NCBI GenBank assembly: GCA_902784585.1
Contig: CACZVM010000002.1
Coordinates: 98,693-162,692, forward strand
Source: an uncultured Bacteroidales bacterium
GTDB lineage: Bacteria > Bacteroidota > Bacteroidia > Bacteroidales > Paludibacteraceae
Direction: 5' to 3'
Length of the DNA stretch: 64,000 nucleotides
Each line of letters begins with the position of its first letter. The first letter of the stretch is position 1. A model generated the notes under the pieces. It had not been told where the DNA came from and did no database searches. It saw nothing but the letters and a program-made list of their open reading frames with translations. Below, piece after piece: positions 2,964 through 54,848 of this stretch. Made by a program: the position numbers and the translations under genes.

Positions 2964-3634
2964 ACGTAATTACGTGCTAACGGGATTACGTAATGACGAA
3001 AAGGAGACGCCGCGCGGCGCACTATTCTACACAAACGGATCTGGCGGCAAAAATGTCGCCAAAAAGGACACCTAATAAACAGCCAAAAAGAATCAGCACT
3101 GGAGGTAAATAACAAATACTACACTCCGCATGGCGCTACACCCACATTGAGCACCTCGCGGGCGGGGCGGCATCTTTCGCGGCATTGTGGCGGGTTGATA
3201 TATAGGGAAGGCACATGACGAGAATATGACGGACGCGAGGGCGAACACGACGCGGCGGAGGATAAAAGCGGGGAAGCGACGGCGAAGGACTAAACCGCCT
3301 ATGTCCGAGCCAACATAAAGCGGATACTATCCGCTGTAACTACCAAGAAAGAAGCGACATCAGATGTCGCGCTAATAAACGAAGAAAGAGGCATCGGCTA
3401 CACCCGCATTGAGACCTCGCGGGGCTAAACCGCCTATGCCCGAGCCAACAGAGGCAAAACGAATCTAGCGGCAAGATGCCGCCATAATTGCACAATACGG
3501 GACGGCGATGAGATCGCCGGCTAACGGACGGAGAATAGACACTGAGCGGCGGATACGATCCGCCTGGAAAATAAGAAAGGCTCCAACTAATAGTCGGGAC
3601 AATACAAAAAAGTAGGAATCGCCTACCAGGCGGT
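2964..3634. repeat. Intergenic mosaic of short stem-loops, block A
   Basis: This gene-free 800-bp gap is packed with short perfect stems. Palindromes: 2964-2975, 2985-2994, 3008-3019. Stem-loops: 3043-3060, 3319-3335 (AGCGGAT/ATCCGCT, loop ACT), 3354-3370 (GCGACAT/ATGTCGC, loop CAG), 3468-3482, 3503-3519, 3548-3564 (GGCGGAT/ATCCGCC, loop ACG) and 3612-3633. Most have a 6-7 bp stem around exactly three loop bases. A ~26-bp linker (CTAAACCGCCTATGYCCGAG...) occurs at 3290-3315 and 3425-3450. No ORF here has credible coding character. Confidence 0.85.
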
Positions 3635-3654
3635 ACAATAGACGAAAGAAAAAT

Positions 3655-3680
3655 CCCCCACTCTACGATGAGAGCGGGGG
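3655..3680 (-). terminator. Intrinsic terminator of the membrane-protein gene
   Basis: Arms CCCCCACTCT (3655-3664) and AGAGCGGGGG (3671-3680) with one A-C mismatch. It is followed leftwards by ATTTTTCTTTC and lies 31 bp downstream of the stop at 3712. Same arm family as the terminators at 1732 and 7472. Confidence 0.8.
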
Positions 3681-3711
3681 AATTAGAGAGAAAGAAGCCC
3701 AAAAAACATTA

Positions 3712-4443
3712 TTATTTCTTAGCGGGAGCTTTCTTAGCAGGAGCTTCAGGAGCAGCAGGTGCCTCGGGAGCCACAGGAGCAGCAGGTGCTTCTTGAACCG
3801 GTGCAGCAGATGCTTCGGGTGCCGGAGCCTCTTCGGGGGCAGTGAGGTGCTTGTAGATAACAGCCTGTACACCGAGCAAAGCGGGAACAAAGAAGATCAC
3901 GAGGAGCACATTGATGAACGTGCCAATACCTTCGAGCCAGCCGATGTGACCGAGACCGAAGAAGAAAGAGATGATACCCGTAGCGATGCAGATAGCGATG
4001 CCCAACAGCGCCTCAATGCCGAAGATACGCCATTTATTGCCGAAAGTGAGCTTGTTGGACTCGCGGAGTGCCTCAAGGGCATTGCGATCTTTGTCCACAA
4101 AAAGGATGACAGCGATATACCACGCATAGCTGATGACGATGCCCGGGATAATCAAGAAGAGGAAGCCTACCCAGATGGCACCTAACATCAGGGACATGAG
4201 GATGAAGAACTCGCCCATGTTGCGGCGATACTGGCCGCGGAAGATGAAGAACGGGTTGATCACATTGCCCTTGGCCAACTCAGCCGGCAGCGAAGCCATA
4301 GCGATAGTGGTGCCGACGTTGAGATACGGGATCCAGATAGTAAGCACGTAGAGGATGACCGCCAACACGATGCTTACATAGTTCATGAGCGCGAGGGTTA
4401 CACCTTCCTGGATGGTAGGAATGATTTCAAGTTTCTTTGCCAT
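3712..4443 (-). CDS. Multi-pass membrane protein with Ala/Pro-rich cytosolic-type tail, 243 aa
   Basis: Roughly residues 1-200 hold five to six hydrophobic segments. The layout, with the loop FVDKDRNALEALRESNKLTFGN in the middle, resembles the glycerophosphodiester-phosphodiesterase-membrane-domain/YciC-like families of unassigned function. Residues ~203-243 are a low-complexity tail of Ala, Pro and Glu ending in APAKKAPAKK. There is no signal peptide beyond the first helix and no catalytic motif. It is transcribed alone, from the promoter at 4481-4512 to the terminator at 3655-3680. The tail may be a flexible linker or a nucleic-acid or membrane contact, which is speculation. Confidence 0.7.
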   Translation of the reverse strand: MAKKLEIIPTIQEGVTLALMNYVSIVLAVILYVLTIWIPYLNVGTTIAMASLPAELAKGNVINPFFIFRGQYRRNMGEFFILMSLMLGAIWVGFLFLIIPGIVISYAWYIAVILFVDKDRNALEALRESNKLTFGNKWRIFGIEALLGIAICIATGIISFFFGLGHIGWLEGIGTFINVLLVIFFVPALLGVQAVIYKHLTAPEEAPAPEASAAPVQEAPAAPVAPEAPAAPEAPAKKAPAKK

Positions 4444-6977: not shown

Positions 6978-7453
6978 ATCGGATAATATCCGATTTCAAT
7001 GGGCGAAACCGGCATACAATTCCGGGCTAATAAACAAAGGACGGGGATTGCATCCCCTACTAATAGACAAAGCAGAAATAGCACCGCAGGTAATAGCTCC
7101 AGTTACACCGGGACAGAGCCATGGGCTACGTCCGCATTGAGGCCGAGCGGGCGGGGCGGGGCGGCGGATAACATCCGCCTGTAATACGAAGAAAAAACGA
7201 AGCGGTAAACCGCCTACACCGCGAGCTCACACAAGAGCGGGCGATAATATCGCCCTGAAAGAAACGAAATAAAGCGGCATACAATGCCGGGCTAATGGAC
7301 AAAGGACGCCGGAATACCGGCGAGAACAGGACGTCCGCATTGAGGCCGAAGCGGGCAATCATATTGCCCTGCAATAGAAGAAAGAGAAACTCCGCGCTAT
7401 CACGCGGAGCAGGAAACGAACTATAAAATATGAAACAGCCGCCTCACAGGCGG
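6978..7453. repeat. Intergenic mosaic of short stem-loops, block C
   Basis: The densest block. Stem-loops: 6978-6994 (ATCGGAT/ATCCGAT, loop AAT), 7009-7025 (one mismatch), 7043-7057, 7163-7179, 7202-7213, 7239-7255 (GGGCGAT/ATCGCCC, loop AAT), 7275-7289, 7307-7322, 7353-7369 (GGGCAAT/ATTGCCC, loop CAT), 7390-7409 and 7439-7453. Linkers such as GCTAATAAACAAAGGAC separate them. The part 7009-7198 duplicates block B. No gene is supported between 6899 and 7536. Confidence 0.88.
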
Positions 7454-7471
7454 GACAATGAAAGAAAAAGA

Positions 7472-7505
7472 AACTCCCCCACTCTGAGGAGAGAGAGGGG
7501 GAGTT
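7472..7505 (-). terminator. Intrinsic terminator of the aquaporin gene
   Basis: AACTCCCCC (7472-7480) pairs with GGGGGAGTT (7497-7505), with an inner CTCT/AGAG pair. A T-rich stretch follows leftwards. It lies 32 bp after the stop at 7537. Confidence 0.8.
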
Positions 7506-7536
7506 CATTGGAGATTTGTGATTTCAAATTTTTGAT

Positions 7537-8250
7537 TTATTTTTTGCAGGAACCTTCGCAGGTGAGGCATTTGTAGCAAAGACCGGCGAGAGCAGCGCCA
7601 ACGAGAGGAGCTACGATGAAGAGCCAGAGTTGCGGAAGGGCAAGTGCGTTCTCGGAGAAGATAGCCTGCGAGATGGAACGTGCAGGGTTCACCGAAGTAT
7701 TGGTCAAAGGAATGGAGATGAGGTGGATAAGGGTCAGGGTAAGACCAATTGCCAAGCCACCGAAAGCGCCGTTAGCATGCTTCGAGTCCGTAACACCGAG
7801 AATGACCATCAAGAAGACAAAAGTCAGGACAGCTTCGATAGCGAAAGCGCCCCACACATTGGTCTGAAGGTAGCCAGCAGCGAGGTCAGCCTCACCGAAG
7901 AAATCTCCGTAACCGTTAGCGGCAAAGGTACCAATCTCCATACCGGCAGATTTAGCGATACCAAAGAGGATCGCGGCTGCAGCAATTGCACCGAGGATTT
8001 GCGCACACCAGTAGCACAACATCTCTTTGGCGCTCATGCGACCGTTCACAAAGACACCAAGGCTGACAGCGGGGTTAAGATGGGCACCGCTGATATGACC
8101 GATGCCATAAGCAGCTGCGACGATGGTCAAACCGAAGGCCAAAGCAACACCCAGAAATCCAACATGTCCAAACAGGGCTGTTCCACAACCGCCCAATACC
8201 AATACAGCTGTTCCGAAGAACTCTGCTGCGAATTTATTACATAACTTCAT
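7537..8250 (-). CDS. aqpZ: Aquaporin-family channel (MIP family)
   Basis: A 237-residue six-helix channel with both hallmark loops: SGAHLNPAVS (NPA at 59-61) and NTSVNPARS (NPA at 188-190, with the selectivity-filter Arg191). The length and the repeat of two halves fit bacterial aquaporin Z-type water channels rather than longer glycerol facilitators. The C-terminus ends in a Cys-rich tail (CYKCLTCEGSCKK), which is unusual for AqpZ and may be a metal or redox site. It is transcribed alone from 8288-8319 to the terminator at 7472-7505. Water conduction is the safest reading; the substrate is not proven. Confidence 0.9.
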   Translation of the reverse strand: MKLCNKFAAEFFGTAVLVLGGCGTALFGHVGFLGVALAFGLTIVAAAYGIGHISGAHLNPAVSLGVFVNGRMSAKEMLCYWCAQILGAIAAAAILFGIAKSAGMEIGTFAANGYGDFFGEADLAAGYLQTNVWGAFAIEAVLTFVFLMVILGVTDSKHANGAFGGLAIGLTLTLIHLISIPLTNTSVNPARSISQAIFSENALALPQLWLFIVAPLVGAALAGLCYKCLTCEGSCKK

Positions 8251-44035: not shown

Positions 44036-45241
44036 TCATCTTCTCAGCAACCAGTCTATTACATTGATTTTGCGGATACCGTCTATATTCGCCCTGTCAA
44101 AATCCATTGTCAGAAGATATTTCGGGTGTGTGTCTTGAATCTTTTTTAATGACGAAATTTCTCTTTTTAATGTATTTTCGTCATTAGCGGTATAAGTCAC
44201 TTGATAATATTCGCGTTCTCCGTTGTGTTTCATCACCACGAAGTCCACTTCTCCCGTATCTGTTCTGCCGGCATATACTTCGCCGCCACGCCTCAAGAGT
44301 TCAAAATACACTACATTTTCCAACTTATGCCCCAAATCAATGGTTGGCACATTCGTTTGGAGCAGATTGCGGAAACCGAGATCCACCGCATAATACTTGT
44401 AATTGCTTGCCAGCAATCGTTTGCCCTTTATATTATATAGCCGGACAGGATATATCAAATATGATTCCGAGAAATAGCGGAGATATTTCAGTACGGTATT
44501 ATGTGACAATTGTTGTCCTGAGGTCCGGTTCAGCGTATCTGCAATATTATTCGGCGATACCACGCTACCTATACTGTCATAAAGGAAATTAATGACACGC
44601 TGCAATGTGTCAAACTTGCGCAACTTATTCCGCTGTACAATATCTTTGACTACTACCGTGTCATATACAGATTGTAGGTAAGTGTTTACCATATCCGGTG
44701 CTGTACGCGACAGATTGACTGCTTCCGGAAAACACGAGGTGTTCATATATTGGCGAAACAGCCTGCCGTAATCATGCTCATCGGGGAAAGATGCTATGTA
44801 CTCTGCAAACGAGAATGGGTGCAAATGAATGTTAATATAGCGCCCGGAAAGCAAGGTGCTCAAATCGCTGGAGAGCATATAAGCATTAGAGCCGGTGATG
44901 TATAGGTCCACATCCTTCTTTACAAATAGTGCATCCACCAATTTCTCGAAATGCGGTAATAGCTGTACTTCATCCAAGAACACATAGCGTTGGGGGGTGT
45001 CGGGCAACTGACCGATAATGTAATCATACACTTCTTCCCATGTAGCAAAACGACTATTTTCGCGTTCCTCAAAATTAAGCGACAACACAGCGTCTTTCTG
45101 TACTCCGTTATCATACAGATATTGTCTAAACGCCATCAACAATGTGGACTTACCGCAACGACGGATTCCGGTTACGATTTTAATTAGATCCTGGTCGCGC
45201 AATTTGATGAGTTGCGTCAGATACGATTCTCGATTTATCAT
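44036..45241 (-). CDS. AAA-type ATPase with DUF4143 domain, 401 aa
   Basis: Walker A is IVTGIRRCGKSTLLM (near residue 22-36), Walker B is RYVFLDEVQLL, and DLYITGSNAYML is the sensor region. The C-terminal DUF4143 domain covers ~190-401, including YYAVDLGFRN and the nuclease-like GEVDFVV. These archaea-type ATPases are common in variable gut-bacterial loci, and their role is unknown. No partner gene lies beside it. It has its own promoter at 45310-45341, embedded in a short repeat. Confidence 0.9.
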   Translation of the reverse strand: MINRESYLTQLIKLRDQDLIKIVTGIRRCGKSTLLMAFRQYLYDNGVQKDAVLSLNFEERENSRFATWEEVYDYIIGQLPDTPQRYVFLDEVQLLPHFEKLVDALFVKKDVDLYITGSNAYMLSSDLSTLLSGRYINIHLHPFSFAEYIASFPDEHDYGRLFRQYMNTSCFPEAVNLSRTAPDMVNTYLQSVYDTVVVKDIVQRNKLRKFDTLQRVINFLYDSIGSVVSPNNIADTLNRTSGQQLSHNTVLKYLRYFSESYLIYPVRLYNIKGKRLLASNYKYYAVDLGFRNLLQTNVPTIDLGHKLENVVYFELLRRGGEVYAGRTDTGEVDFVVMKHNGEREYYQVTYTANDENTLKREISSLKKIQDTHPKYLLTMDFDRANIDGIRKINVIDWLLRR

Positions 45242-45309
45242 AGTACTCTCTTTGAATTTCCTACTGACGAAAATAGCAAAAATCTACAAATCTCGTCAGT
45301 ATTCGGCTG

Positions 45310-45341
45310 CAAAGATACAAAAAATTTTCCTATCCCGCAAA
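45310..45341 (-). promoter_or_regulatory. Bacteroidota promoter for the DUF4143 ATPase
   Basis: TTTG (45341-45338), 20 nt, TATCTTTG (45317-45310) reading leftwards, 68 bp before the ATG. Confidence 0.85.
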
Positions 45342-45445
45342 TTTTAGAAGCAAAAACTTGCACTATCCCGCAAATTTTTCCAATTTTAGCGGTTCTCTAG
45401 TATTTTTGCAAGCCCAAACATGCACTATCCCCAGAATGTTTAGAG
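45329..45445. repeat. Repeated CTATCCCGCAAATTTT element upstream of the ATPase
   Basis: CCTATCCCGCAAATTTTAG at 45329-45347 overlaps the -33 element. ACTATCCCGCAAATTTTTC recurs at 45362-45380, and a diverged GCACTATCCCCAGAATGTTT at 45422-45441. They could be operator copies or relics. I see no gene between 45242 and 45662; the 45446-45660 part shows no further structure that I can name. Confidence 0.7.
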
Positions 45446-45662: not shown

Positions 45663-46325
45663 TTAAGCGGATGGAGCGAAGGAGATGTTGATTGTAATAT
45701 CAAACGCAAGGAGCGAATTGCGGCAATGATAGACAAAAAGTCCGTCGGGTTGTTGGGTCATTGTTTCCCATTTGCCGGAGATGGTCCAGCTATTATGATG
45801 AATAATGACTTGTTTGTCCTGTGCCGAATCGGGACTGGAGATGATTTTAATATAGTTCTCCGTTCTGGAAATATCTGTTCCTTCAAACAACGCTTCATCC
45901 CATCGGGTGATGTGTTCTTCGCCTGCAATATAGTCCATTGGAATAACATGCATTTCCAACATCACTTCTTCCTTATCTCCGAATGAAACAGCTACAGGAT
46001 AAACAGAACTTATCTCTCCGTCTTTCTCATATCCAAGCCATTGCTCATAAATAGCATAGATAGAGTAACCTCCATTGACATCTTCGCATAACGAGGCGTA
46101 TTTGAGTTCACTATCCGTTTTTTTAGCCTTCAAATATTCCCATTGTTCTTTGGATAGTTTACTCGGAACTAATTTGGGCTGCAATAAACGACAACCGATA
46201 GGCGGCTCTATTTCAAGTTGTGAAGAATCCTGAGGTAAGGTATTAAAATAGGCATCTTGTTCCTCTTCGCGGAGGAATTGGCCGTTGTTGTCAAAATATT
46301 CTGTGTGATAGATTACTCGTTTCAT
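45663..46325 (-). CDS. Hypothetical protein, 220 aa, end of the accessory run
   Basis: It starts MKRVIYHTEYFDNNGQFLREE and is soluble, acidic and beta-rich with many aromatic residues (YSIYAIYEQWLGYEK, HITRWDEALFEG). I do not recognise it. The C-terminus (LLAFDITINISFAP) is strand-like. Its start overlaps the stop of the 85-residue gene by four bases (46322-46325), so it is the last gene of the run from 53464. It resembles the size range of immunity/SUFU-like proteins, but there is no solid signature. Confidence 0.65.
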   Translation of the reverse strand: MKRVIYHTEYFDNNGQFLREEEQDAYFNTLPQDSSQLEIEPPIGCRLLQPKLVPSKLSKEQWEYLKAKKTDSELKYASLCEDVNGGYSIYAIYEQWLGYEKDGEISSVYPVAVSFGDKEEVMLEMHVIPMDYIAGEEHITRWDEALFEGTDISRTENYIKIISSPDSAQDKQVIIHHNSWTISGKWETMTQQPDGLFVYHCRNSLLAFDITINISFAPSA

Positions 46326-46579
46326 TCTTCTTCGGGATTATCAAGCGTTACTTTTCCGTTAATATAGAATAAGACCTCATAGCCTTCATTCATGAGCGGA
46401 TCAATTTCTTCTTCTGGGATGTCTTCTACCACATAACCTGCTTCATCTTCTTCACCTTCCGCGCAAATAGTGCAGGCACTCCAGCATACTCCGCCTCGGG
46501 TAAGCCAGAGACGTTCATCTTCGTCAAACCACGCATCAATGAGGATTTGGCGAGTTTCTTTGTCAACTAAGTATTCCAT
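46322..46579 (-). CDS. Small acidic protein, 85 aa
   Basis: MEYLVDKETRQILIDAWFDE opens a very acidic protein (EEDEAGYVVEDIPEEEIDP), with a Cys-x-x-x-Cys-x-x-Cys stretch (CWSACTIC, residues ~32-39) that could bind metal. No family is recognised. It is spaced 9 bp from the gene upstream and has an ATGA overlap with the gene downstream. Confidence 0.65.
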   Translation of the reverse strand: MEYLVDKETRQILIDAWFDEDERLWLTRGGVCWSACTICAEGEEDEAGYVVEDIPEEEIDPLMNEGYEVLFYINGKVTLDNPEEE

Positions 46580-46588
46580 AATCTATCT

Positions 46589-46834
46589 TTATATTTCAGC
46601 ATTCATGTATTCGCTGAAGAAATCAATAACATCTTCTTCGCTCTTTTGCTCCAAGTGTTCTTCCAACCAATTGAGTAATTGGCGTTGTTCTTCGGATGTA
46701 TAATCCTCGGTCATGGCCGCTTCCGGATGATAGGTGAAGCCGTTATCATGACAATAGTTCCACAAGTTTTGATAATCAACTTTGCAGCCGTTAGTATATA
46801 ACTTCTGCCATAGGGATTCTACTACTTCGCTCAT
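46589..46834 (-). CDS. Small acidic helical protein, 81 aa
   Basis: MSEVVESLWQKLYTNGCKVD begins a short helical, acidic protein (SEEQRQLLNWLEEHLEQKSEED). No family is recognised. It lies 11 bp behind the 116-residue gene and 9 bp ahead of the 85-residue gene, clearly in one transcription unit. Confidence 0.65.
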   Translation of the reverse strand: MSEVVESLWQKLYTNGCKVDYQNLWNYCHDNGFTYHPEAAMTEDYTSEEQRQLLNWLEEHLEQKSEEDVIDFFSEYMNAEI

Positions 46835-46845
46835 ATGTCTGTATA

Positions 46846-47196
46846 TTAGTTGAGAATAAGGTGAATCGTATTACTTTTATAGGGGGAGAGTTGTGTGCGC
46901 AGTTCGTTCCAATCAAACGGAATTTGGCTTCGTTCGGCGATGTACTGCAAGTCATGGAGCAATGCTTCATCCACATTGAACATTCGTACGCTCCCCTCAT
47001 CTCCATATAGGTCATCACACCAATCCACGAGATACGAACGCATACCTTGTGAGATGGGCACTTCTATCTCATCCCAAGCATTCTTTGGGACAAAATTCTC
47101 ATCATCAATCTCAATGAGGCAATAGTCCACATGAGGCTTCTCATCGGAGATATATCCTTTGAGATCTCGCAAATAGTTACATCTAGAAAAAAGCAT
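46846..47196 (-). CDS. Hypothetical protein, 116 aa
   Basis: MLFSRCNYLRDLKGYISDEK leads a soluble acidic protein with WCDDLYGDEGS and WNELRTQLSPYKSN stretches. No family recognised and no signal peptide. Its start is 15 bp from the stop of the 362-residue gene upstream. Confidence 0.65.
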   Translation of the reverse strand: MLFSRCNYLRDLKGYISDEKPHVDYCLIEIDDENFVPKNAWDEIEVPISQGMRSYLVDWCDDLYGDEGSVRMFNVDEALLHDLQYIAERSQIPFDWNELRTQLSPYKSNTIHLILN

Positions 47197-47211
47197 ATAT
47201 GTTTTAACTAA

Positions 47212-48300
47212 TCAAAATGGTAAACTTTCATCGTTAGGTTTTGAAATCGTTAATCTAAAATCACTTATATCATCATTCATTTTTCTCGCATTAATATATT
47301 CCAACACACAAGAATAAAAACATTCCATGACGCGCGCAATCTCCTCTGTGGTCCTATTCGCTCCTAATGAAACTTTTTTCCACGAAGGATGATTTTTTAT
47401 GTTATTTTGGATATTACGATCGAGAGCGTACAACCAACGAATACATTCCTCATGATTGTGTTTTGCGGCTAGTGCTAAAAACAACTGAGTATTCAGTAAT
47501 GAGACTAAAGATGGAATCCACGTTTTTTTGCTTTTGATTTCCAAGTATTTTTTATTTGATATTTCATGTTTGATAGTTCCAATATAAATTCTACTATATA
47601 CTGTTTCTTCGACTTTGCTATGAGTTGAAAAATAATAATCGAGATATTCCATCGGAAATAATCTAGACTTGTCAATATACTCCTCAAAACCATTTAAACA
47701 TCGAAAGTGGTAAGGCAAATAATTATTAACAAAATCCCGATACTGACGAAGTAAGTCTTTAGGAGCATTTCTTACAATAATTTCAATTCCTGCAGACTTT
47801 ATTGTCGTCGTAACTCCCTTGTCTGATTGTAATTCATTTATTATATTCTCTAAAGTCCAGTCCTCCCATATGTTATTTTGTGCCATTAGCAGAATTGCCA
47901 AGCGAGCAGAAATCTTGTTATGGGAAAATAGTTTTTTCAATATTTTTATTTGTATCACATATTCTTGTCCTAAAAATCGTTGTTTCAATTCGTTCCGAGC
48001 AGCCGATGCGGTTTCTTTGTGTTCTAAATCTTTTAACACAACATAAATGGATCGATTTCTTACTGCAATGATTGATGAATACTTGTATTTATATAAACTC
48101 TTTTGTAGTACCGCGGAATCATGTTTTTCATTAACTAGAGAGATAAAGAATCTAAGTTGCGATGTATGGCTATACTTGTCAATAAATTTTGAGACTTCCT
48201 CTATTTGTATGGGTAAGTCTTCATATAATTGTAACATATTCTCGCAACCATGAATTATATGTCTATCTTTAATAATCTTCTTTTTTAGTGGTGAACGCAT
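47212..48300 (-). CDS. Hypothetical alpha-helical protein, 362 aa
   Basis: I take ATG 48300 (MRSPLKKKIIKDRHIIHGCEN), because the two residues upstream depend on a TTG. The protein is rich in Lys, Ile and Asn and has helical segments (VLQKSLYKYKYSSIIAVRNR, RFLGQEYVIQIKILKKLF), with no transmembrane or catalytic motif. The DNA is visibly more AT-rich than the housekeeping genes. The part from residue ~235 to 330 (NTQLFLALAAKHNHEECIRW) looks like a helical domain. Function unknown. Confidence 0.65.
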   Translation of the reverse strand: MRSPLKKKIIKDRHIIHGCENMLQLYEDLPIQIEEVSKFIDKYSHTSQLRFFISLVNEKHDSAVLQKSLYKYKYSSIIAVRNRSIYVVLKDLEHKETASAARNELKQRFLGQEYVIQIKILKKLFSHNKISARLAILLMAQNNIWEDWTLENIINELQSDKGVTTTIKSAGIEIIVRNAPKDLLRQYRDFVNNYLPYHFRCLNGFEEYIDKSRLFPMEYLDYYFSTHSKVEETVYSRIYIGTIKHEISNKKYLEIKSKKTWIPSLVSLLNTQLFLALAAKHNHEECIRWLYALDRNIQNNIKNHPSWKKVSLGANRTTEEIARVMECFYSCVLEYINARKMNDDISDFRLTISKPNDESLPF

Positions 48301-48369
48301 GCACAAATCTCTTTATAAAAAGCAACCATCAATAAACTAAATTAACAGAAATAATATAAGTGTTTGTTA

Positions 48370-49278
48370 TTAATTTTTCCGTATAATGGCCATTATAATT
48401 AATATGACTGTAACAAGCACAAGCAACCATATTAATGGAGCCCAACTGGATATCATAAAACCCCAAATACCGCCTACTATTAGAGCTAGAGGATAGCCTC
48501 CCCCTGCCATCCCTAGCATATTGTCTCCAATCTCTCGTTTTCTTTTCACATTTTCCTCCTTTTTCTTCTGTTGCTCTGCCCATTCATGTGCTTCTTGTCC
48601 CCTTTGCTCATGTGCTCTTTTTGTTTCTGTTAAAACTTCTATTTCTTTTTCAATAAGTCCCGGATATGCCGTTTCGTCTATAGCAGCCGCGTAGAACAAT
48701 CTGCACATTAGTTGAAAACTCTTACATTCACGTTCGTAGTCTTTTTGAACATCTTGCCGCCAGGGATTCTCATGCTCTACTTGTTGCACATCTATCATTA
48801 AAGGAACACGTACATACAATTGCTTAGCATCAGCTATTTGTTTTAACATTTCTTTCGATATTTCATATAGTATCGTTACATTTAGTCCTCCACGACTATC
48901 ACTCTGTTTGTCAATACTATATCTTTGTAACGTGATATTGGTATCGTTTATACGTAAGACAAATTCCCCCTTGTCAATTTTATCCAATGCAGGACCTTGA
49001 AGCAGACATTCTACTTGACTATAATATAATTGAATAAAAATCTGATCTTTGGATGCATTAGATTTAGAAAACACATCGAATCTTGCATTATATTCATCCA
49101 TGCAGCAGTATTTGTCGAATGAAGTTGCGAATGTGTATTCGGAATCTGCATATTGTGGTAAATACTCCCCTACAATTGAAATGTAGTCCATTATTTCGCC
49201 ATCAAATCCATAATTGAAACGTTTAACCGTTTCTTCTTTAAACATGTCATGATTGACAGAAATAAGTTCATTTTCCAT
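48370..49278 (-). CDS. Membrane protein with C-terminal GGIW hairpin, 302 aa
   Basis: Residues 1-185 are soluble and beta-rich. Residues ~186-240 are a charged helix (AHEQRGQEAHEWAEQQKKKE) of coiled-coil character, and residues ~255-300 are two hydrophobic segments, VGGIWGFMISSWAPLIWLLV and on. The same motif (GGIW-x8-11-PLIW) ends the 493-residue zinc-ribbon protein at 50342-51823, so the two share a membrane module. It ends in basic residues (IIRKN), with the soluble part probably cytosolic. Gene spacing is 15 bp from the zinc-ribbon gene upstream. No known family. Confidence 0.72.
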   Translation of the reverse strand: MENELISVNHDMFKEETVKRFNYGFDGEIMDYISIVGEYLPQYADSEYTFATSFDKYCCMDEYNARFDVFSKSNASKDQIFIQLYYSQVECLLQGPALDKIDKGEFVLRINDTNITLQRYSIDKQSDSRGGLNVTILYEISKEMLKQIADAKQLYVRVPLMIDVQQVEHENPWRQDVQKDYERECKSFQLMCRLFYAAAIDETAYPGLIEKEIEVLTETKRAHEQRGQEAHEWAEQQKKKEENVKRKREIGDNMLGMAGGGYPLALIVGGIWGFMISSWAPLIWLLVLVTVILIIMAIIRKN

Positions 49279-49293
49279 AATTGTATAATATTA

Positions 49294-49917
49294 TTAATTA
49301 ATAACTTGATGCATGGCATATTGATACTTTTCCTTATCAATCACCATGTTGTAGAATTTTCGACTATATGTTACAAAATCTTTATAAGTATTGTGGTGTA
49401 CACAAGACCATAAATTTGTATCAATGGTAACTTCGTTGGCTTTACATAAGAAATCAAAATCTTGATAAGGCATTGAGAATGCCAACTTTTCACCGAGATA
49501 CCCTTTGTTGAGTAGGGGTATTACCTCGTCCTGAATTTTAATACTTATAAAGTTCTGAGCATTAGTTCGTTTAATTTGAACCAATAATTGCACATCTATT
49601 CCTCTTTTCAATATCTTTGCATACCACCAAAACGCAATAGTTTTATCCAATGACAAATCGTGTTTTCTCGGATAAAATGGCTGTGCGGAAATAATTTCAA
49701 AACCATCATACAACTCTTTGACATATACAATTGTATTGTTATTTTGGATGTATGAAATATTCCGTTTTATGTATTCATAGAATTTTGTAGTCTGCTGTTG
49801 TCCAAATCTGGGAGGAGAAGCGACTCCCTCTGCGACACATGTACTGCCGCAGAAAGGACAGACATGCGTAAAAGCATGCCGCTCCATTTCCGCTCCGCAA
49901 TTAGGACAGGTCATTTC
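49294..49917 (-). CDS. Zinc-ribbon protein, 207 aa
   Basis: The ATG at 49917 gives MTCPNCGAEMERHAFTHVCP, a classic zinc ribbon with Cys3/Cys6 and Cys19/Cys22. The remaining ~180 residues form an uncharacterised mixed alpha/beta domain (NISYIQNNNTIVYVKELYDG, VDVQLLVQIKRTNAQNFISI). It resembles the N-terminal half of the 493-residue protein nearby in layout. No membrane segment is present. It is followed 15 bp on by the membrane protein at 48370-49278; together the pair looks like a split version of the 493-residue protein. Confidence 0.75.
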   Translation of the reverse strand, partial: EMTCPNCGAEMERHAFTHVCPFCGSTCVAEGVASPPRFGQQQTTKFYEYIKRNISYIQNNNTIVYVKELYDGFEIISAQPFYPRKHDLSLDKTIAFWWYAKILKRGIDVQLLVQIKRTNAQNFISIKIQDEVIPLLNKGYLGEKLAFSMPYQDFDFLCKANEVTIDTNLWSCVHHNTYKDFVTYSRKFYNMVIDKEKYQYAMHQVIN

Positions 49918-49955
49918 TACTAAACACAATATACGTTTATTCTTTTTTTTCTATA

Positions 49956-50147
49956 CTATTTTGTGGTATCCAAAGTATCTTCCTCGTCCTTTTTACCAAT
50001 CTGGTTCGTTTGAACGGTAATTTTCCCAAAATCTTTCATATCAACTTCAGCTTGACGAGGATTCTTTTCGTCATACGAAATGAATTCTCCTTCGATATTT
50101 GCACCCGAGTAGAGGACAAACACCTTGTCTCCTTTTTTGAACCCCAT
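49956..50147 (-). CDS. Small beta-rich protein, 63 aa
   Basis: MGFKKGDKVFVLYSGANIEG, with KITVQTNQIGKK following, suggests a small SH3-like barrel of the kind found in KOW/Tudor-type proteins. The last residues are acidic. No family is recognised. Its start codon and the 70 bp upstream are a near copy of the region around the start of the 493-residue gene (51821-51893). Confidence 0.62.
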   Translation of the reverse strand: MGFKKGDKVFVLYSGANIEGEFISYDEKNPRQAEVDMKDFGKITVQTNQIGKKDEEDTLDTTK

Positions 50148-50217
50148 AATTTTACTTTTTAATTTTGTTAGACAATATGTTAACTATCACAAATAGTGAT
50201 ATTTATGCGAATAATAG
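50145..50217 (-). pseudogene. Relic of the four-helix membrane-protein gene's 3' end
   Basis: This stretch aligns without gaps to 51821-51893, with about nine in ten bases identical. In the leftward frame it still reads LFVIVNILSNKIKK followed by a stop, which is exactly the C-terminus of the membrane protein at 51828-52175. A TAA replaces GAA just before it. The remaining part to 50341 is AT-rich with no coding signal. Confidence 0.8.
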
Positions 50218-50341
50218 AGAGCTATTCCCCCTATTCAGTATGCGTTTATCGCTATTCGTAATTACTCTTCAAAAGTACTTTTATTAACCATATCTTTTTT
50301 CTTTAAGTTCATACTCTATCTAAGTTCTCGATGTGAACTCG

Positions 50342-51823
50342 TTAGTAGCTCTTCCCATATTTCGATTCGTATGCTTTAATATCTGATTGTAATCCAATGA
50401 ACTTAACTAAACATAGAGTTCCTAACGAAATAGTTACAACTGCAAACCAAATAAGAGGATTGCAATTACCAACAATTAGGCTCCATATACCACCAACAAA
50501 CAAAGTTAAACAACTCCCTATTCCCCAACATATTTTAGCCCATGTTTCCCATGATTCACGTTTTAGACGATTTCTTTGGTATTCATCTTTTTTTGAGCAG
50601 AGTGTCTTTAATTTACTCATTCCTTCAACAGGATCCTCTACTGCTTGCCAAATAACACTAAGAATCATTCGTAATCGTTCACTATATATGTTTTTTGTGT
50701 TACCACATTCGTCATATAGATGCAAGGTGCATTCATTTTTGTCTTGAGACTCCGCGATTCTTTTTAAATCCGGGGCTTCCAAAATATACCTTTTTTCAAT
50801 ATACCACCAAGGTACGCTTAAATATGGCTTCTTGTCAGAATCTAAAAGCCATTTATACGGACTTATTTCACCAAAACTTCCAAACTCTATTAGCTCGAAA
50901 CCTCGATATTTAAATTTCAGGTGAATTGAGCTTTTAGAGCAAGCAAATGTCACAAACACATAACCACTTATATAAAAATTACCTAACTTTAGTACACAAT
51001 TAATAAAGTTCTTATCACATAATTGTAGTTCTAGTTTCTTTTCTACTTCTTTCCGTGAGTTCGTTTTTGTTTGTTTATCTTTTGCTATTCTATCTAATTC
51101 TTTTATCTCCTTATTAACAAATGCCTCGATTGTTTGCAAATTAAAGTCAGCACTTGATATTTCAATCTCATTAGTATATTCATCATCTTCATATGATTTA
51201 TCGTCATCCCATTTTTCATAAAAAACACCTTTCACGAAATCGCCATTCCGATTGTATTTAACTTCTACTAAATACTCTCTATCATCTTCCTCTTCATCGA
51301 AAGATGTGCTATCTTCTTCATTATTATATGTTAAAAGATATGGATTAGATACGTGTATAATAAATGACGTGTCAGCATTCGGATATAACTCATTGATAAA
51401 TTGAGTTATAAACTTTACGGTTCCATCTATGTCCATTCCAAATGATACTTTGTTTTTCTCAAAAAGCGGATACATTGAACAATTCGCAAATGCTCCAAAT
51501 CTCTCATGGGGATATGTTAGTTGGATTTTCTTTTTAGAACTTTGGACGATAAGTATAGCTTTATTATTATTTCTAACATCTACTATTTTTAATGATAATA
51601 ATTTACTATGTTTTTCGCTAATATCGTTAATAATATTAGTAAATGTTTCTAACATCCGTTTGATTCCATTATCTATAGGTATATCTCGAACAACGTCGGC
51701 ATATCTACTAACATCAATACCTTTAACCAACTTGCCAACCAAGAAACTACCACAGAATTCGCAGTAATCTTTCTTTGTTGTTGTTGCACCGCAATTAGGG
51801 CAAACAAGAGATTGGAGTTTCAT
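50342..51823 (-). CDS. Zinc-ribbon protein with C-terminal membrane hairpin, 493 aa
   Basis: The N-terminus MKLQSLVCPNCGATTTKKDY places zinc ligands at Cys8, Cys11, Cys21 and Cys24. Residues ~25-165 form one domain, ~165-300 a second part with an acidic stretch (EEDSTSFDEEEDD), and ~300-420 a beta domain. Residues ~432-476 are a membrane hairpin with GGIWSLIVGNCNPLIWF, the motif shared with the protein at 48370-49278. The final ~18 residues are charged. No named family fits, though the plan (zinc ribbon, soluble domain, C-terminal helices) recalls B. subtilis YdjG. It is spaced 4 bp from the four-helix protein gene. Confidence 0.75.
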   Translation of the reverse strand: MKLQSLVCPNCGATTTKKDYCEFCGSFLVGKLVKGIDVSRYADVVRDIPIDNGIKRMLETFTNIINDISEKHSKLLSLKIVDVRNNNKAILIVQSSKKKIQLTYPHERFGAFANCSMYPLFEKNKVSFGMDIDGTVKFITQFINELYPNADTSFIIHVSNPYLLTYNNEEDSTSFDEEEDDREYLVEVKYNRNGDFVKGVFYEKWDDDKSYEDDEYTNEIEISSADFNLQTIEAFVNKEIKELDRIAKDKQTKTNSRKEVEKKLELQLCDKNFINCVLKLGNFYISGYVFVTFACSKSSIHLKFKYRGFELIEFGSFGEISPYKWLLDSDKKPYLSVPWWYIEKRYILEAPDLKRIAESQDKNECTLHLYDECGNTKNIYSERLRMILSVIWQAVEDPVEGMSKLKTLCSKKDEYQRNRLKRESWETWAKICWGIGSCLTLFVGGIWSLIVGNCNPLIWFAVVTISLGTLCLVKFIGLQSDIKAYESKYGKSY

Positions 51824-51827
51824 AACT

Positions 51828-52175
51828 TTACTTTTTGATTTTGTTAGACAATATGTTAACTATCACAAAGAGGGATACTTCTGCGAATAGGAGAATAAGG
51901 ATTGCAATTAGACAAGCATTGTCTTGTAGTTGCTGTTGCATGAAACAGCCGAGTATCATTTCAATCAGCCCCACTATCACGAATAGGAATGAAAGCGCTA
52001 TGCGGAGAGCGTCTCGCATATTGAATTTGTACAGACCAAGTAGCAGAGCAGCATTCAAAGCGATTACTCCGCAATTTACTCCCATATTAAAATAGGAATA
52101 TCCGGATAGCAATAAACCGAAGAGCACATTGACGATAAGCGCCAAGCCTCCAAGCATAAGAATAGTCCTTTTCAT
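51828..52175 (-). CDS. Small four-helix membrane protein, 115 aa
   Basis: Start ATG 52175 (MKRTILMLGGLALIVNVLFG), 7 bp behind the SPFH gene. Four hydrophobic segments occupy most of the protein, ending in VIVNILSNKIKK. No family is recognised. Its 3' end is duplicated at 50145-50217. A small multi-helix membrane protein next to an SPFH gene recalls the YdjH position in the B. subtilis ydj operon, but that is inference from order only. Confidence 0.7.
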   Translation of the reverse strand: MKRTILMLGGLALIVNVLFGLLLSGYSYFNMGVNCGVIALNAALLLGLYKFNMRDALRIALSFLFVIVGLIEMILGCFMQQQLQDNACLIAILILLFAEVSLFVIVNILSNKIKK

Positions 52176-52182
52176 GTGTTTA

Positions 52183-53295
52183 TCAGTTTTGAGGTGGAAC
52201 AGGTGGCGGTGTTTGGTGATTGAGGATTCCTGTAAGTTCCGGCATTTGCGAGAGTGGAAGCCATGTTGACATGCCAGCTTTCCAGACAAGTGTATCGGCA
52301 TTGATGGATCCTTGCTGTAACATAGCAGCAATAGTTTGTGGCGTTTGGTTGGGGAGTTGCTGACCATTGACATATACAAAATAAGTTTGCTGTTGTGAGA
52401 TTGGCGGCGGTGCAACAGGGTTGGTATTGATCATTTGTCCTGCCATGCTTCCAATCGTAGAACCAACTCCTACGCCTGCACCAAGTCCGGCTCCCATAGC
52501 CATCATTTGTCCGCCTGCACCTGTATTGCCTGCAGCAGTTTCCAAAACATCGAAACTACGCTCCATCTGATACACGTCTTTGCCAGTTACTTGAAGCCTT
52601 GCAGCAAGATCTTTGGCTTCTTTCAATCGTTGCAGACTTGGGTCTTCCTCCGGTACATTGACAGACATAATATTAAAGTCCACCAACTCAATACCATACT
52701 TCGCAAAAGATTGATTAAGTTGTTGCTGGCAGAATGCGGACATATCTATCAGTTGCGTGTTTACATCGAGAATAGAGACATTGTCTTTTGCAATTTTCTG
52801 CGCAATAAGCGCCGAGAGTTGCATGACTATTTTCCCTTTGAAATACTGCTCTACTTTGTCAGAAGAGAAGGCTGTCATATTGCCGACAAGTGTTTCAAGG
52901 AATGTGCATGGAGTAGCCACTCTGAAACCATATTGTCCATAGGCGCGCACGGGAACAATAATCTTATATCGAGGATCTTCCAACTGCATAGGCTGTGTGG
53001 TTCCCCATTTAATATCCAACTTGTGCAATTGACTGATAAACCAGACCTCCGCTTTGAAAGGGGAATCACTTCCATATGGGAGATTGATGAGTTTATTCAA
53101 TAAGGGCAGTTCTTCGTTTTTGAGCGTATATGTACCAGCTGTAAACTCATCACAGATTTTACCTCCATGCACAAAGAACGCTGTTTGCGCAGGATGTACA
53201 ACCAGTTGCGAGCCTAAACGCAAATCGTCAGACGGGAATTTGGCGACAAGTTCCTGGTCGTTGGATTCAATACTAATTACATCAATTAGTGCCAT
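52183..53295 (-). CDS. SPFH-domain protein with GYF_2-like C-terminus, 370 aa
   Basis: Residues ~20-215 form an SPFH (stomatin/prohibitin/flotillin) domain of the YdjI/virion-core type: LRLGSQLVVHPAQTAFFVHG at the front, VRAYGQYGFRVATPCTFLET mid-way, and ALIAQKIAKDNVSILDVNTQ to the end. A Gly/Ala/Met-rich linker (~258-292) follows. Residues 305-351 (YFVYVNGQQL through TWLPLSQM) look like a GYF_2/DUF4339 peptide-binding module, and a Pro-rich tail ends the protein. No N-terminal helix is present, so it would be recruited to the inner face of the membrane. SPFH proteins form large scaffolds in membrane stress and lipid domains. Confidence 0.85.
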   Translation of the reverse strand: MALIDVISIESNDQELVAKFPSDDLRLGSQLVVHPAQTAFFVHGGKICDEFTAGTYTLKNEELPLLNKLINLPYGSDSPFKAEVWFISQLHKLDIKWGTTQPMQLEDPRYKIIVPVRAYGQYGFRVATPCTFLETLVGNMTAFSSDKVEQYFKGKIVMQLSALIAQKIAKDNVSILDVNTQLIDMSAFCQQQLNQSFAKYGIELVDFNIMSVNVPEEDPSLQRLKEAKDLAARLQVTGKDVYQMERSFDVLETAAGNTGAGGQMMAMGAGLGAGVGVGSTIGSMAGQMINTNPVAPPPISQQQTYFVYVNGQQLPNQTPQTIAAMLQQGSINADTLVWKAGMSTWLPLSQMPELTGILNHQTPPPVPPQN

Positions 53296-53308
53296 AAAAT
53301 TATATTTA

Positions 53309-53464
53309 TTATCCTAAAGTTACACTTAATATCTCAGCATTTTTATACGCCGAATTTTGACTGCAAAGCACATCTTTTGCTTCATACTTATCTCCAAATT
53401 TTAAATCAAGGAATCTTTCAGAATAGGTTGGACCTAATTTGTATTTAACTAAATAACGTGCCAT
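53309..53464 (-). CDS. Small protein, 51 aa, first gene of the SPFH run
   Basis: From the ATG at 53464 the frame reads MARYLVKYKLGPTYSERFLD and continues LKFGDKYEAKDVL to a TAA at 53309-53311. It is 13 bp from the SPFH start codon, so it is in the right place to be cotranscribed. The composition is protein-like (Tyr/Lys rich, beta-strand pattern), with no signal or membrane segment. It is too short for homology reasoning. Coding status is a moderate-confidence inference from spacing and residue use. Confidence 0.5.
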   Translation of the reverse strand: MARYLVKYKLGPTYSERFLDLKFGDKYEAKDVLCSQNSAYKNAEILSVTLG

Positions 53465-53768
53465 AATTATAGACTTTATTTTGCCTCCATTTTATTATTA
53501 GGCAGGAGGTTTCGCCGGTATGTTTTTTGCTTTTCTTTTCTAGGTCTTGTGCCGCTCTTGTGCCGCTTTAAGGAATTCTATGTTTGCTCTGCAAACTCGC
53601 GCGGCGCACTTACTCCTTCGAATGTCCACTGGACATTCTCGGTACGCCTTATTCGCTTCACAGTCGGTGGGAAGGAGAATCCTTTCGCCCCCACTATAAA
53701 AGAAAAGCGGCAGTCCGCTTAATTGGATTACCGCTTTTGTTGAAAGGATGTTGCTCTATTACATATAA
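53465..53768. other. Gene-free region with palindrome and stem-loops
   Basis: No credible gene lies between the SPFH run and the Fic gene. GAATGTCCA-C-TGGACATTC (about 53620-53638) is a near-perfect palindrome, and AAGCGG-CAGT-CCGCTT (about 53704-53719) is a stem-loop downstream of fic that could help termination. Two GTGCCGCT repeats stand near 53550-53567. Base composition differs from that of the flanking genes, which suggests a boundary of the accessory locus. Confidence 0.6.
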
Positions 53769-54848
53769 TTAGATCGACGGAGTAATGAACACCCGCCAAG
53801 AACCATCCTTCGTATTCCTCTCTACATAGTTTTTCTCAATCAGTTGTCCTACTAATTTACGCACTGCTGTCAAACTGATACTTAACTCATCCCGCATATC
53901 TTCTTGCGTCAATGCCGGTTGCGTCTGCATTATTCGCAGAATCTTCGCGTAGTTCGGTGTCCGGAACTCTATCATCTCTCCGTCGTACCACCATACATTC
54001 TCCGCTTTATGCGTCACAAACAAGTAATCGTGGTATATCTCGTTGGCAACTAATCCTTGGAAATATTGTACGAAAGGTGCAATATCCTTGATAGTGGCAT
54101 GTGCACCATCACTCGGCACTTTGCCTACAATCAGATCTGCCTGATGCAACGCCTCCAGATAATTCTGTTTCTTGCGACTACGCACCACAATCATCGGCAG
54201 GCCATGCCGCGACAGGATGAAGTTCACCATCAGTCGGGCTATACGACCGTTACCGTCTTCAAACGGGTGAATACGGATATAGCGATAATGAAACAATGCC
54301 GCCAACTCAATTGGCGATAATCGACCGGCTTCCTCCTCGGAGTTATACCAGTTAATAAGATCGGTCATCAATGCAGGCGTCTCTTCCGGAGAAGCATACT
54401 CAAAGCGGTCGCCATAACGTGTAATAACCGAGTTTGGACGTGTTTTGTATTGTCCGGCATGGATGGTATAACTCGTTTGGACACCTCCGGGCAAGTTACG
54501 ATAGACAGTATAATCTTCTCGCAGTAATGTTTTATGCAATGTGCGGATGAAATTCTGGGTCAACGGCATGTCCTGCGTTTTGGCCTCCTCCGTCATCATC
54601 TTAACTCCCACATTACTTGCCGTCATTTCCTGTATATCCCGCACTGTCGCTTCACCTATTACCTTTCCGAACAATAGCAGAATCTCAGTTTGACCATAGG
54701 TCAAGGTATTACCCTCGATATGATTGCTGTTATAGTTGTAGTCGATGGTAAACCGACGACTCAGGCGCTCGCGGTCTTTCTCCGAAATCGGTTGGATGCC
54801 TTCCCAAGCTTGCAATGCCTTCTTTACGCTTACCTGTTTCATATACAT
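53769..54848 (-). CDS. Fic-domain protein (class II, with C-terminal winged helix), 359 aa
   Basis: The catalytic Fic motif is IHPFEDGNGRIARLM (HPFxDGNGR, His near residue 194). SNHIEGNTLTYGQTEIL near residue 42 matches the (S/T)xxxE(G/N) inhibitory helix placed N-terminal to the Fic core, so it is a self-inhibited class II enzyme. Fic proteins usually transfer AMP to a target hydroxyl. The C-terminal ~60 residues (ALTQEDMRDELSISLTAVRKL) are a winged-helix-like domain, which allows DNA binding and autoregulation. Its own promoter lies at 54964-54995, with a ~110-nt leader holding two hairpins. Confidence 0.93.
   Translation of the reverse strand: MYMKQVSVKKALQAWEGIQPISEKDRERLSRRFTIDYNYNSNHIEGNTLTYGQTEILLLFGKVIGEATVRDIQEMTASNVGVKMMTEEAKTQDMPLTQNFIRTLHKTLLREDYTVYRNLPGGVQTSYTIHAGQYKTRPNSVITRYGDRFEYASPEETPALMTDLINWYNSEEEAGRLSPIELAALFHYRYIRIHPFEDGNGRIARLMVNFILSRHGLPMIVVRSRKKQNYLEALHQADLIVGKVPSDGAHATIKDIAPFVQYFQGLVANEIYHDYLFVTHKAENVWWYDGEMIEFRTPNYAKILRIMQTQPALTQEDMRDELSISLTAVRKLVGQLIEKNYVERNTKDGSWRVFITPSI

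Follow-up and report, generated by a model that had tools for sequence, protein, structure and literature searches.

The membrane foci of the soluble SPFH protein YdjI of Bacillus subtilis require YdjG and YdjH, which anchor it, and YdjI itself is required for the recruitment of PspA (PMC8581546). Of these two partners, YdjG carries zinc ribbons and a transmembrane (TM) segment, and YdjH has a TPM domain (PMC11237479). Band-7 genes of Bacteroidota have been reported adjacent to pspA (PMC9239133). We analyzed a related locus in a stretch of 64,000 nucleotides (nt) from an uncultured Bacteroidales bacterium (assembly GCA_902784585.1, contig CACZVM010000002.1), which as a whole is called the window. 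Open reading frame (ORF) calling on the window found twelve ORFs at 45663–53464, all leftward and tightly spaced (g1 to g12; Table 1), as a preliminary description of the DNA had stated. That description proposed that all twelve genes form one accessory system of SPFH, zinc-ribbon and membrane proteins resembling ydjGHI. Our analysis supports an accessory set of this kind and narrows it to three genes. SPFH scaffolds are very widespread, and the locus bears on the question of how bacteria choose the cargo that is loaded onto them.

Conservation of the SPFH, TM4 and zinc-ribbon genes

Nine aligned SPFH sequences served as the query for a scan of public genomes, which gave 391 relatives; the best 80 loci were used for all locus counts. 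Judging from the record titles, these 80 loci were mostly from Bacteroidales, with some from Flavobacteriia and others. The gene following SPFH encoded a protein of 110–127 amino acids (aa) with three or four predicted TM segments, designated as TM4, in 75 of the 80 loci. A protein with an N-terminal CxxC...CxxC motif was encoded near SPFH, at most about 3.5 kb downstream or 2.5 kb upstream of it, in 74/80 loci, versus 1/344 control ORFs located more than 5–6 kb away. Among the six loci without such a gene, L079 and L140 stop at contig ends, and L087, L115, L127 and L145 have matches to an iterated g4 profile; this profile may have drifted, and the stricter count of 74/80 was kept. The window has the same arrangement, with the TM4 gene directly after SPFH and a zinc-ribbon gene near. 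The conserved unit is SPFH-TM4-zinc ribbon, not the twelve genes, and its gene order is kept among relatives, which does not hold for the order of the tail genes.

TM4 was also used as the sole query. It matched 10 of 178 genomes of the genus, including the genome of the window, and all ten copies adjoin an SPFH gene; an eleventh, weak match in G111 contains stop codons and has no SPFH gene nearby. A 65-row TM4 profile matched 4 of 393 genomes of the order (own genome included), with SPFH adjacent in the three others, and a draw of 392 genomes across the phylum found TM4 in the own genome only; as few candidates (usually no more than 11) were scored in each genome, these draws may have missed TM4 copies. 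The distribution suggests that the system is patchy across genomes.

The small four-helix protein noticed earlier is TM4. In its alignment (A3), N16 is invariant, and G20, Y26, N30 and N86 are nearly invariant. The Pfam scan gave no match for the window copy and, among the 65 members, scattered matches of one or two members each. TM4 is thus a four-helix partner family for which no covering Pfam model was found. The comparison with solved structures gave no credible match for TM4 or the g4 family.

Exchange of the zinc-ribbon partner

Both g4 and g6 start with CxxC...CxxC, in line with their earlier reading as zinc ribbons, with Pfam ribbon matches below the cut-off. The two alike C-terminal membrane hairpins were likewise found: g4 and g7 each end in two predicted TM segments, and these ends match at 36% over about 55 aa (E ~4e-4). 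In profile comparisons, the C-terminal parts of g6 and g7 matched with E 3.5e-5 (probability 72%), g7 and g4 with E 1.5e-4 (probability 52%), and g6 and g4 mainly within the ribbon; these E-values carry no database correction, and the alignments behind them comprised three to six sequences. The three proteins may be distant paralogues.

An alignment of 69 zinc-ribbon proteins (A4) had as invariant columns only the four ribbon cysteines and one glycine. The cysteines were the rule of selection, and the informative part of the alignment is therefore the absence of any other constant position. BLAST clustering of the bodies without their first 45 residues gave 19 clusters, including a large, chained one. 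Among 79 pairs of loci with SPFH proteins at least 75% identical, 21 shared no similar ribbon body when all ribbon genes found near SPFH were compared (phmmer, E 0.01). The share of unlike pairs by SPFH identity was 4/36 at 85% or more, 17/43 at 75–85% and 20/31 at 70–75%; a cruder count with BLAST and the first ribbon gene per locus gave 31/79. When five hand-made body classes were mapped on the SPFH tree (78 rows), no fewer than 20 changes were needed, where the minimum was 4 and the shuffled mean 40.5, which indicates that bodies are partly inherited and often replaced. L074 provides the clearest example: its SPFH and TM4 are 88% and 89% identical to those of the window, and no further operon gene is in common. 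Thus, zinc-ribbon bodies turn over faster than SPFH-TM4. A search for the type-B zinc ribbon away from SPFH matched 2 of 70 genomes, with the C-terminal part only.

A repeated tm4 end at the junction with g4

At the DNA level, the window is homologous to L074, L076 and L023 across the SPFH and TM4 genes, and the homology ends at 51818–51820, at the start codon of g4 (51823). The last 74 nt of this shared segment recur immediately before g5 with 89% identity (Table 1), inside the largest intergenic gap of the operon (194 bp, upstream of g5). L072, the nearest relative operon, carries the same stray tm4 3′ end. In L076 (the same place as L055), g4 is missing and the TM4 gene leads directly into genes for a small, a zinc-ribbon and a hairpin protein; the order of small protein, ribbon and hairpin is kept in a few relatives. 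The simplest account would be that recombination within the tm4 3′ end placed g4, along with a duplicate of the tm4 tail, between tm4 and g5. Judging from this repeat, g4 is probably an inserted cassette.

Distribution of the accessory genes

The order g1 to g12 was found again only in G143, the genome that contains L072 (the same place as L054), and there a different small protein stands in place of g5. G079 has relatives of g1, g4, g7, g10, g11 and part of g12, arranged differently. Among the loci examined, relatives of g8 and g9 occurred only in G143, g10–g12 recurred piecemeal with the C-terminal part of g12 also in L023 and L056, and in L073 the relative of g1 sits inside the operon. We searched the genus for g2, g3, g4, g6 and g7. 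The expected co-occurrence of ribbon and hairpin proteins with SPFH was borne out for g6, with relatives in four other genomes, and for g7, with relatives over at least 110 residues in two; each of these adjoins SPFH-TM4. The same holds for two of the three other genomes with g4 relatives. Genes g5–g12 are accessory, and nearly the whole set was seen in just one other genome. The Pfam content of 49 proteins encoded downstream of the ribbon gene was very mixed, the listed families occurring in one or two members each.

The SPFH protein and its GYF_2 domain

The preliminary description had recognized an SPFH protein with a GYF_2-like tail, and the Pfam scan agreed. The g2 protein matched PF13421 Band_7_1 (E 2.6e-49), a family that includes YdjI, and PF14237 GYF_2 (E 2.1e-13) at residues 305–354, with no ribbon match. 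It is soluble by prediction. NCBIfam NF033761 matched g2 in part, with a score far under the cut-off. The only solved chain matched by g2 was 7z3c, the GYF domain of the gliding protein GltJ/AgmX (E 1.6e-5).

GYF domains bind proline-rich peptides. The GYF_2 motif W..GM..W was present in 67 of 78 SPFH proteins; a proline-rich C-terminus was present in 70/78 and a proline stretch ahead of the GYF domain in 62/78. PPP or PPA was found in just 2 of 80 ribbon proteins. As proline tracts are common on the SPFH proteins and rare on the ribbon proteins, GYF_2 may grip the tails of the scaffold itself and so cross-link its subunits.

SPFH profile matches of some kind, many of them partial, were found in 53 of 178 genus genomes. 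The genome of the window has further SPFH or GYF_2 stretches at G000:C11:43786-46024 and G000:C1:4759-5154, one of them with an in-frame stop.

Operon layout and composition

Pfam scanning of the 12 window proteins gave no match above the cut-off except for g2. NCBIfam (10/12 proteins), PADLOC (12/12) and PHROGs (10/12) gave nothing beyond weak or partial matches, and an Rfam scan over 44–56 kb found no match. The 'SH3-like' label given earlier to a small protein was assigned by eye and did not find support: g1 and g5 have no Pfam match above the cut-off. The small acidic proteins described in the same place are g9–g12.

Table 1 Coordinates of the operon genes and associated elements in the window.
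Feature	Position	Strand	Description	Source
g1	53309..53464	-	51-aa small protein at operon head, net charge +2	
g2	52183..53295	-	SPFH (Band_7_1); GYF_2 and a proline-rich tail at the C-terminus; core gene 1	Pfam
g3 (TM4)	51828..52175	-	115 aa, four predicted TM segments; core gene 2	
g4	50342..51823	-	493 aa; zinc ribbon, variable body, g7-like domain and C-terminal hairpin; core gene 3 (exchangeable)	
Repeat copy 1	51821..51894	.	tm4 3′ end as far as the g4 start codon	
Repeat copy 2	50145..50218	.	stray tm4 3′ end immediately before g5; read as cassette-insertion scar	
g5	49956..50147	-	63-aa small protein	
g6	49294..49911	-	second zinc-ribbon protein, ~205 aa; C-terminal domain probably g7-related	
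g7	48370..49278	-	302 aa; soluble part, charged linker and C-terminal membrane hairpin	
g8	47212..48300	-	~362 aa, without known family	
g9	46846..47196	-	acidic small protein, net charge -12	
g10	46589..46834	-	acidic small protein, net charge -14	
g11	46322..46579	-	acidic small protein, net charge -20	
g12	45663..46325	-	acidic protein, net charge -17	
Palindrome	53620..53638	.	19 nt with 9-bp arms, in structured boundary upstream of operon	

Eleven of the twelve genes could be aligned with those of L072, and their ratios of nonsynonymous to synonymous substitution rates (dN/dS) were 0.06–0.56, estimated with an experimental Biopython function and in several cases from short genes. These values suggest that the 11 compared genes are real and under purifying selection.

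The GC content was 0.32–0.35 at 47–52 kb, versus 0.46–0.57 at 7–44 kb. The AT-richness noted earlier is therefore present; it is not unique to the operon, since 61–64 kb is nearly as AT-rich (GC 0.35–0.37). AT skew was highest in the window at 3001–4000 (0.37) and 7001–8000 (0.34). Downstream of the operon, 45309–45441 contains three copies of a 38-nt direct repeat (71–76% to the reference copy), which adjoin a gene at 44036–45241 labelled by eye as ATPase-like.

Flanking regions and carriage

The structured boundary of the preliminary description was located as a palindrome upstream of the operon (Table 1), near a dispersed intergenic repeat. This repeat, at 53703–53736 just downstream of a Fic gene (53769–54848), has many scattered matches in genus genomes. 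About 1.3 kb of the upstream flank, containing the Fic gene, is common to the window, L073 and L076 at 94–95% nt identity. The identity to the window from SPFH through TM4 is 80% in L073, where it runs into g4, and 70% in L076. A flank at 94–95% beside operons at 80% and 70% is as expected if operon alleles were exchanged. The Fic flank was also considered as a fixed integration site, which proved only partly true, as it has other neighbours in L215, L216 and L217. The flank also matched L218 with 89.9% identity. In G152 (L215:5366-5620, reverse complement), the flank that lies before the operon in the window is followed by other genes. One of them codes for a small protein that looks secreted and has two CxxC pairs.

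We considered carriage by plasmids and phages and rejected both. Twenty-four plasmid records had SPFH relatives, none of which reached 60% identity, and the best match (B. finegoldii) lies beside obgE and is therefore perhaps chromosomal. Two phage records carried SPFH relatives, neither with 80% coverage, as did two viral contigs. On a Vibrio coralliilyticus plasmid (NZ_CP048695.1; L223), a distant SPFH gene has neighbours annotated as TIR-domain and TRAFs-binding-domain proteins, which may point to a defence context.

Proposed mechanism and alternative explanations

The best explanation of the locus, to which we give about an even chance, is a PspA-free chromosomal accessory system of the YdjGHI kind, in which SPFH and TM4 form a chassis and an exchangeable ribbon protein serves as reader or effector. 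SPFH oligomers would form at the inner face of the membrane, where TM4 would anchor them, along with the TM tail of the ribbon protein where present. The ribbon protein would dock through its zinc ribbon, and its exchangeable body, which often carries a TM segment at the C-terminus, would read or act on the state of the membrane or a client. GYF_2 would most likely hold proline-rich stretches of neighbouring SPFH subunits, cross-linking the scaffold. New reader or effector genes would arrive as cassettes at the tm4 3′ end and generate strain-specific operons such as g4–g12. The putative role is envelope surveillance or protection, with surveillance the likeliest by analogy. TM4 and the zinc ribbon look like two constant contacts, and the body of the cargo varies between relatives. 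The relatives thus offer a natural series, one chassis with varied cargo, for probing PspA-free SPFH microdomains. A stronger form of this proposal is polymorphic, conflict-driven membrane surveillance of a previously undescribed kind, in which the constant SPFH-TM4 chassis has a hot spot at the tm4 end and accepts unrelated ribbon effectors through the zinc ribbon as a universal plug. We consider this form possible, though somewhat unlikely.

Several observations weigh against the proposed system. The 80 loci were themselves found through SPFH, and TM4 is missing in 4 of the 79 loci with room for it (L105, L142, L145 and L147; the fifth TM4-less locus, L079, reaches a contig end). The invariance of the ribbon cysteines is no evidence of docking, because they were selected for. 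Sequence searches can overlook distant similarity between bodies: L080 and L088 were counted as unlike yet share a similar FGxD motif. The body class 'other' (31 rows) is mixed, and the 21 unlike pairs are not independent of one another, with L102 occurring in six of them and L138 in three. G142, which is 96% complete, gave no SPFH match and carries a 3′ half of g4 close to the end of a contig, so that a partner was found, in part, apart from SPFH. Two of the ten SPFH copies in the genus are broken, by a frameshift in G002 (L023:8928-9976) and an in-frame TGA in G010 (L025:6706-7512), so that either the system can be dispensed with or some of the assemblies contain errors.

A role in defence or abortive infection, in which SPFH-TM4 would sense infection at the membrane, the ribbon and hairpin proteins would act as effectors such as pore formers and the acidic proteins would be controls, fits the partner turnover and the patchy presence (10/178 genomes), and the low GC content and hairpin tails point the same way. 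Among 99 upstream proteins scanned, out of 125 listed, we found SoFic matches in 3, GajB in 2 and tyrosine integrases in 5, but these counts have no background rate. The PADLOC scan matched g6 alone among the 12 window proteins, and weakly (Csf3gr5 E 0.028, Cas12f E 0.066); six other ribbon proteins gave four weak matches, the best at 0.0062. No credible enzyme domain was found in the 69 ribbon proteins, where GT87 (4.3e-5) was the one weak match, and the phage records amount to the two incomplete matches above. The PADLOC and upstream scans thus gave no direct evidence for a defence role, which we regard as unlikely. A loose accessory island, made of a common SPFH gene and passengers that share an integration site, is in our view quite improbable for the locus as a whole. 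The rarity and variability of g8–g12 and the behaviour of the Fic flank, which is shared among three loci and has unrelated neighbours in three more, agree with it, and part of the tail g8–g12 may well have this origin; however, an island of passengers cannot explain the TM4 gene in 75/80 and the ribbon gene in 74/80 loci, or dN/dS below 1 in all 11 compared genes.

The operon could also be an ordinary PspA-type envelope-stress operon, a ydjGHI homologue using a PspA encoded elsewhere. It contains the same kinds of parts, namely SPFH, a ribbon protein with TM segments and a membrane partner, and the reported adjacency of Bacteroidota band-7 genes to pspA would agree with this origin. In line with the earlier observation that PspA is absent here, Pfam found no PspA match among the 12 operon genes. 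PF04012 was above the cut-off in 0 of 10 TM4-bearing genomes, which are drafts 60–100% complete; G138 had one sub-threshold match (19.9 of 33.9 bits). Nor was a TPM domain found in the 12 window proteins (Pfam, E up to 1 and up to 0.1), and the SPFH protein has no C-terminal ribbon. We therefore consider this explanation very doubtful.

Comparison with known SPFH systems

Like pspA-ydjGHI, the window operon combines a soluble band-7 SPFH protein with a zinc-ribbon TM protein and another membrane protein in one operon (PMC8581546, PMC9239133, PMC11237479). A YdjG-like trait is present in g4, which has a ribbon motif and two C-terminal TM segments; YdjG itself also has an NTF2-like body. The window operon differs in lacking PspA and in gene order. 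It has TM4 rather than YdjH with its TPM domain, the SPFH protein bears GYF_2 instead of a C-terminal zinc ribbon, and the body of the ribbon protein is exchanged between strains.

The band-7/flotillin operons with YqiJ/YuaF also consist of SPFH and a small multi-TM partner and are also reported without PspA; their SPFH has its own TM segment and a flotillin part, the partner has three TM segments, and the available text mentions no exchangeable ribbon protein (PMC11237479). The literature searched, with partial coverage, describes no SPFH-four-TM-zinc-ribbon set without PspA and no exchange of ribbon partners. The resemblance of the window SPFH to GltJ/AgmX of Myxococcus gliding is confined to the GYF domain, about 65 residues. 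GltJ, a large envelope protein, is not known to contain SPFH.

Operons with the same three protein kinds, SPFH, multi-TM and zinc ribbon, were found more widely, in L028, L029, L033 and L035 of the same genus and in L221 and L219. Their TM partners are mostly larger than TM4, and homology of TM4 to six of the larger partners (L221 excluded) was sought and not found (profile probability 1.2%). L221 (Bacteroides finegoldii NZ_OY725907.1) has a 251-aa four-TM partner, lies beside obgE and pgeF and appears to be a housekeeping-looking cousin of the core. L219 (IMGVR_UViG_3300022660_000109) is a viral contig that encodes, besides SPFH, a four-TM protein and a further TM protein whose C-terminus bears a zinc ribbon. 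In both, SPFH, the four-TM protein and the ribbon protein follow in that order, as in the core. Thus, the three-part logic reaches beyond this clade, to other Bacteroidota operons and one viral contig.

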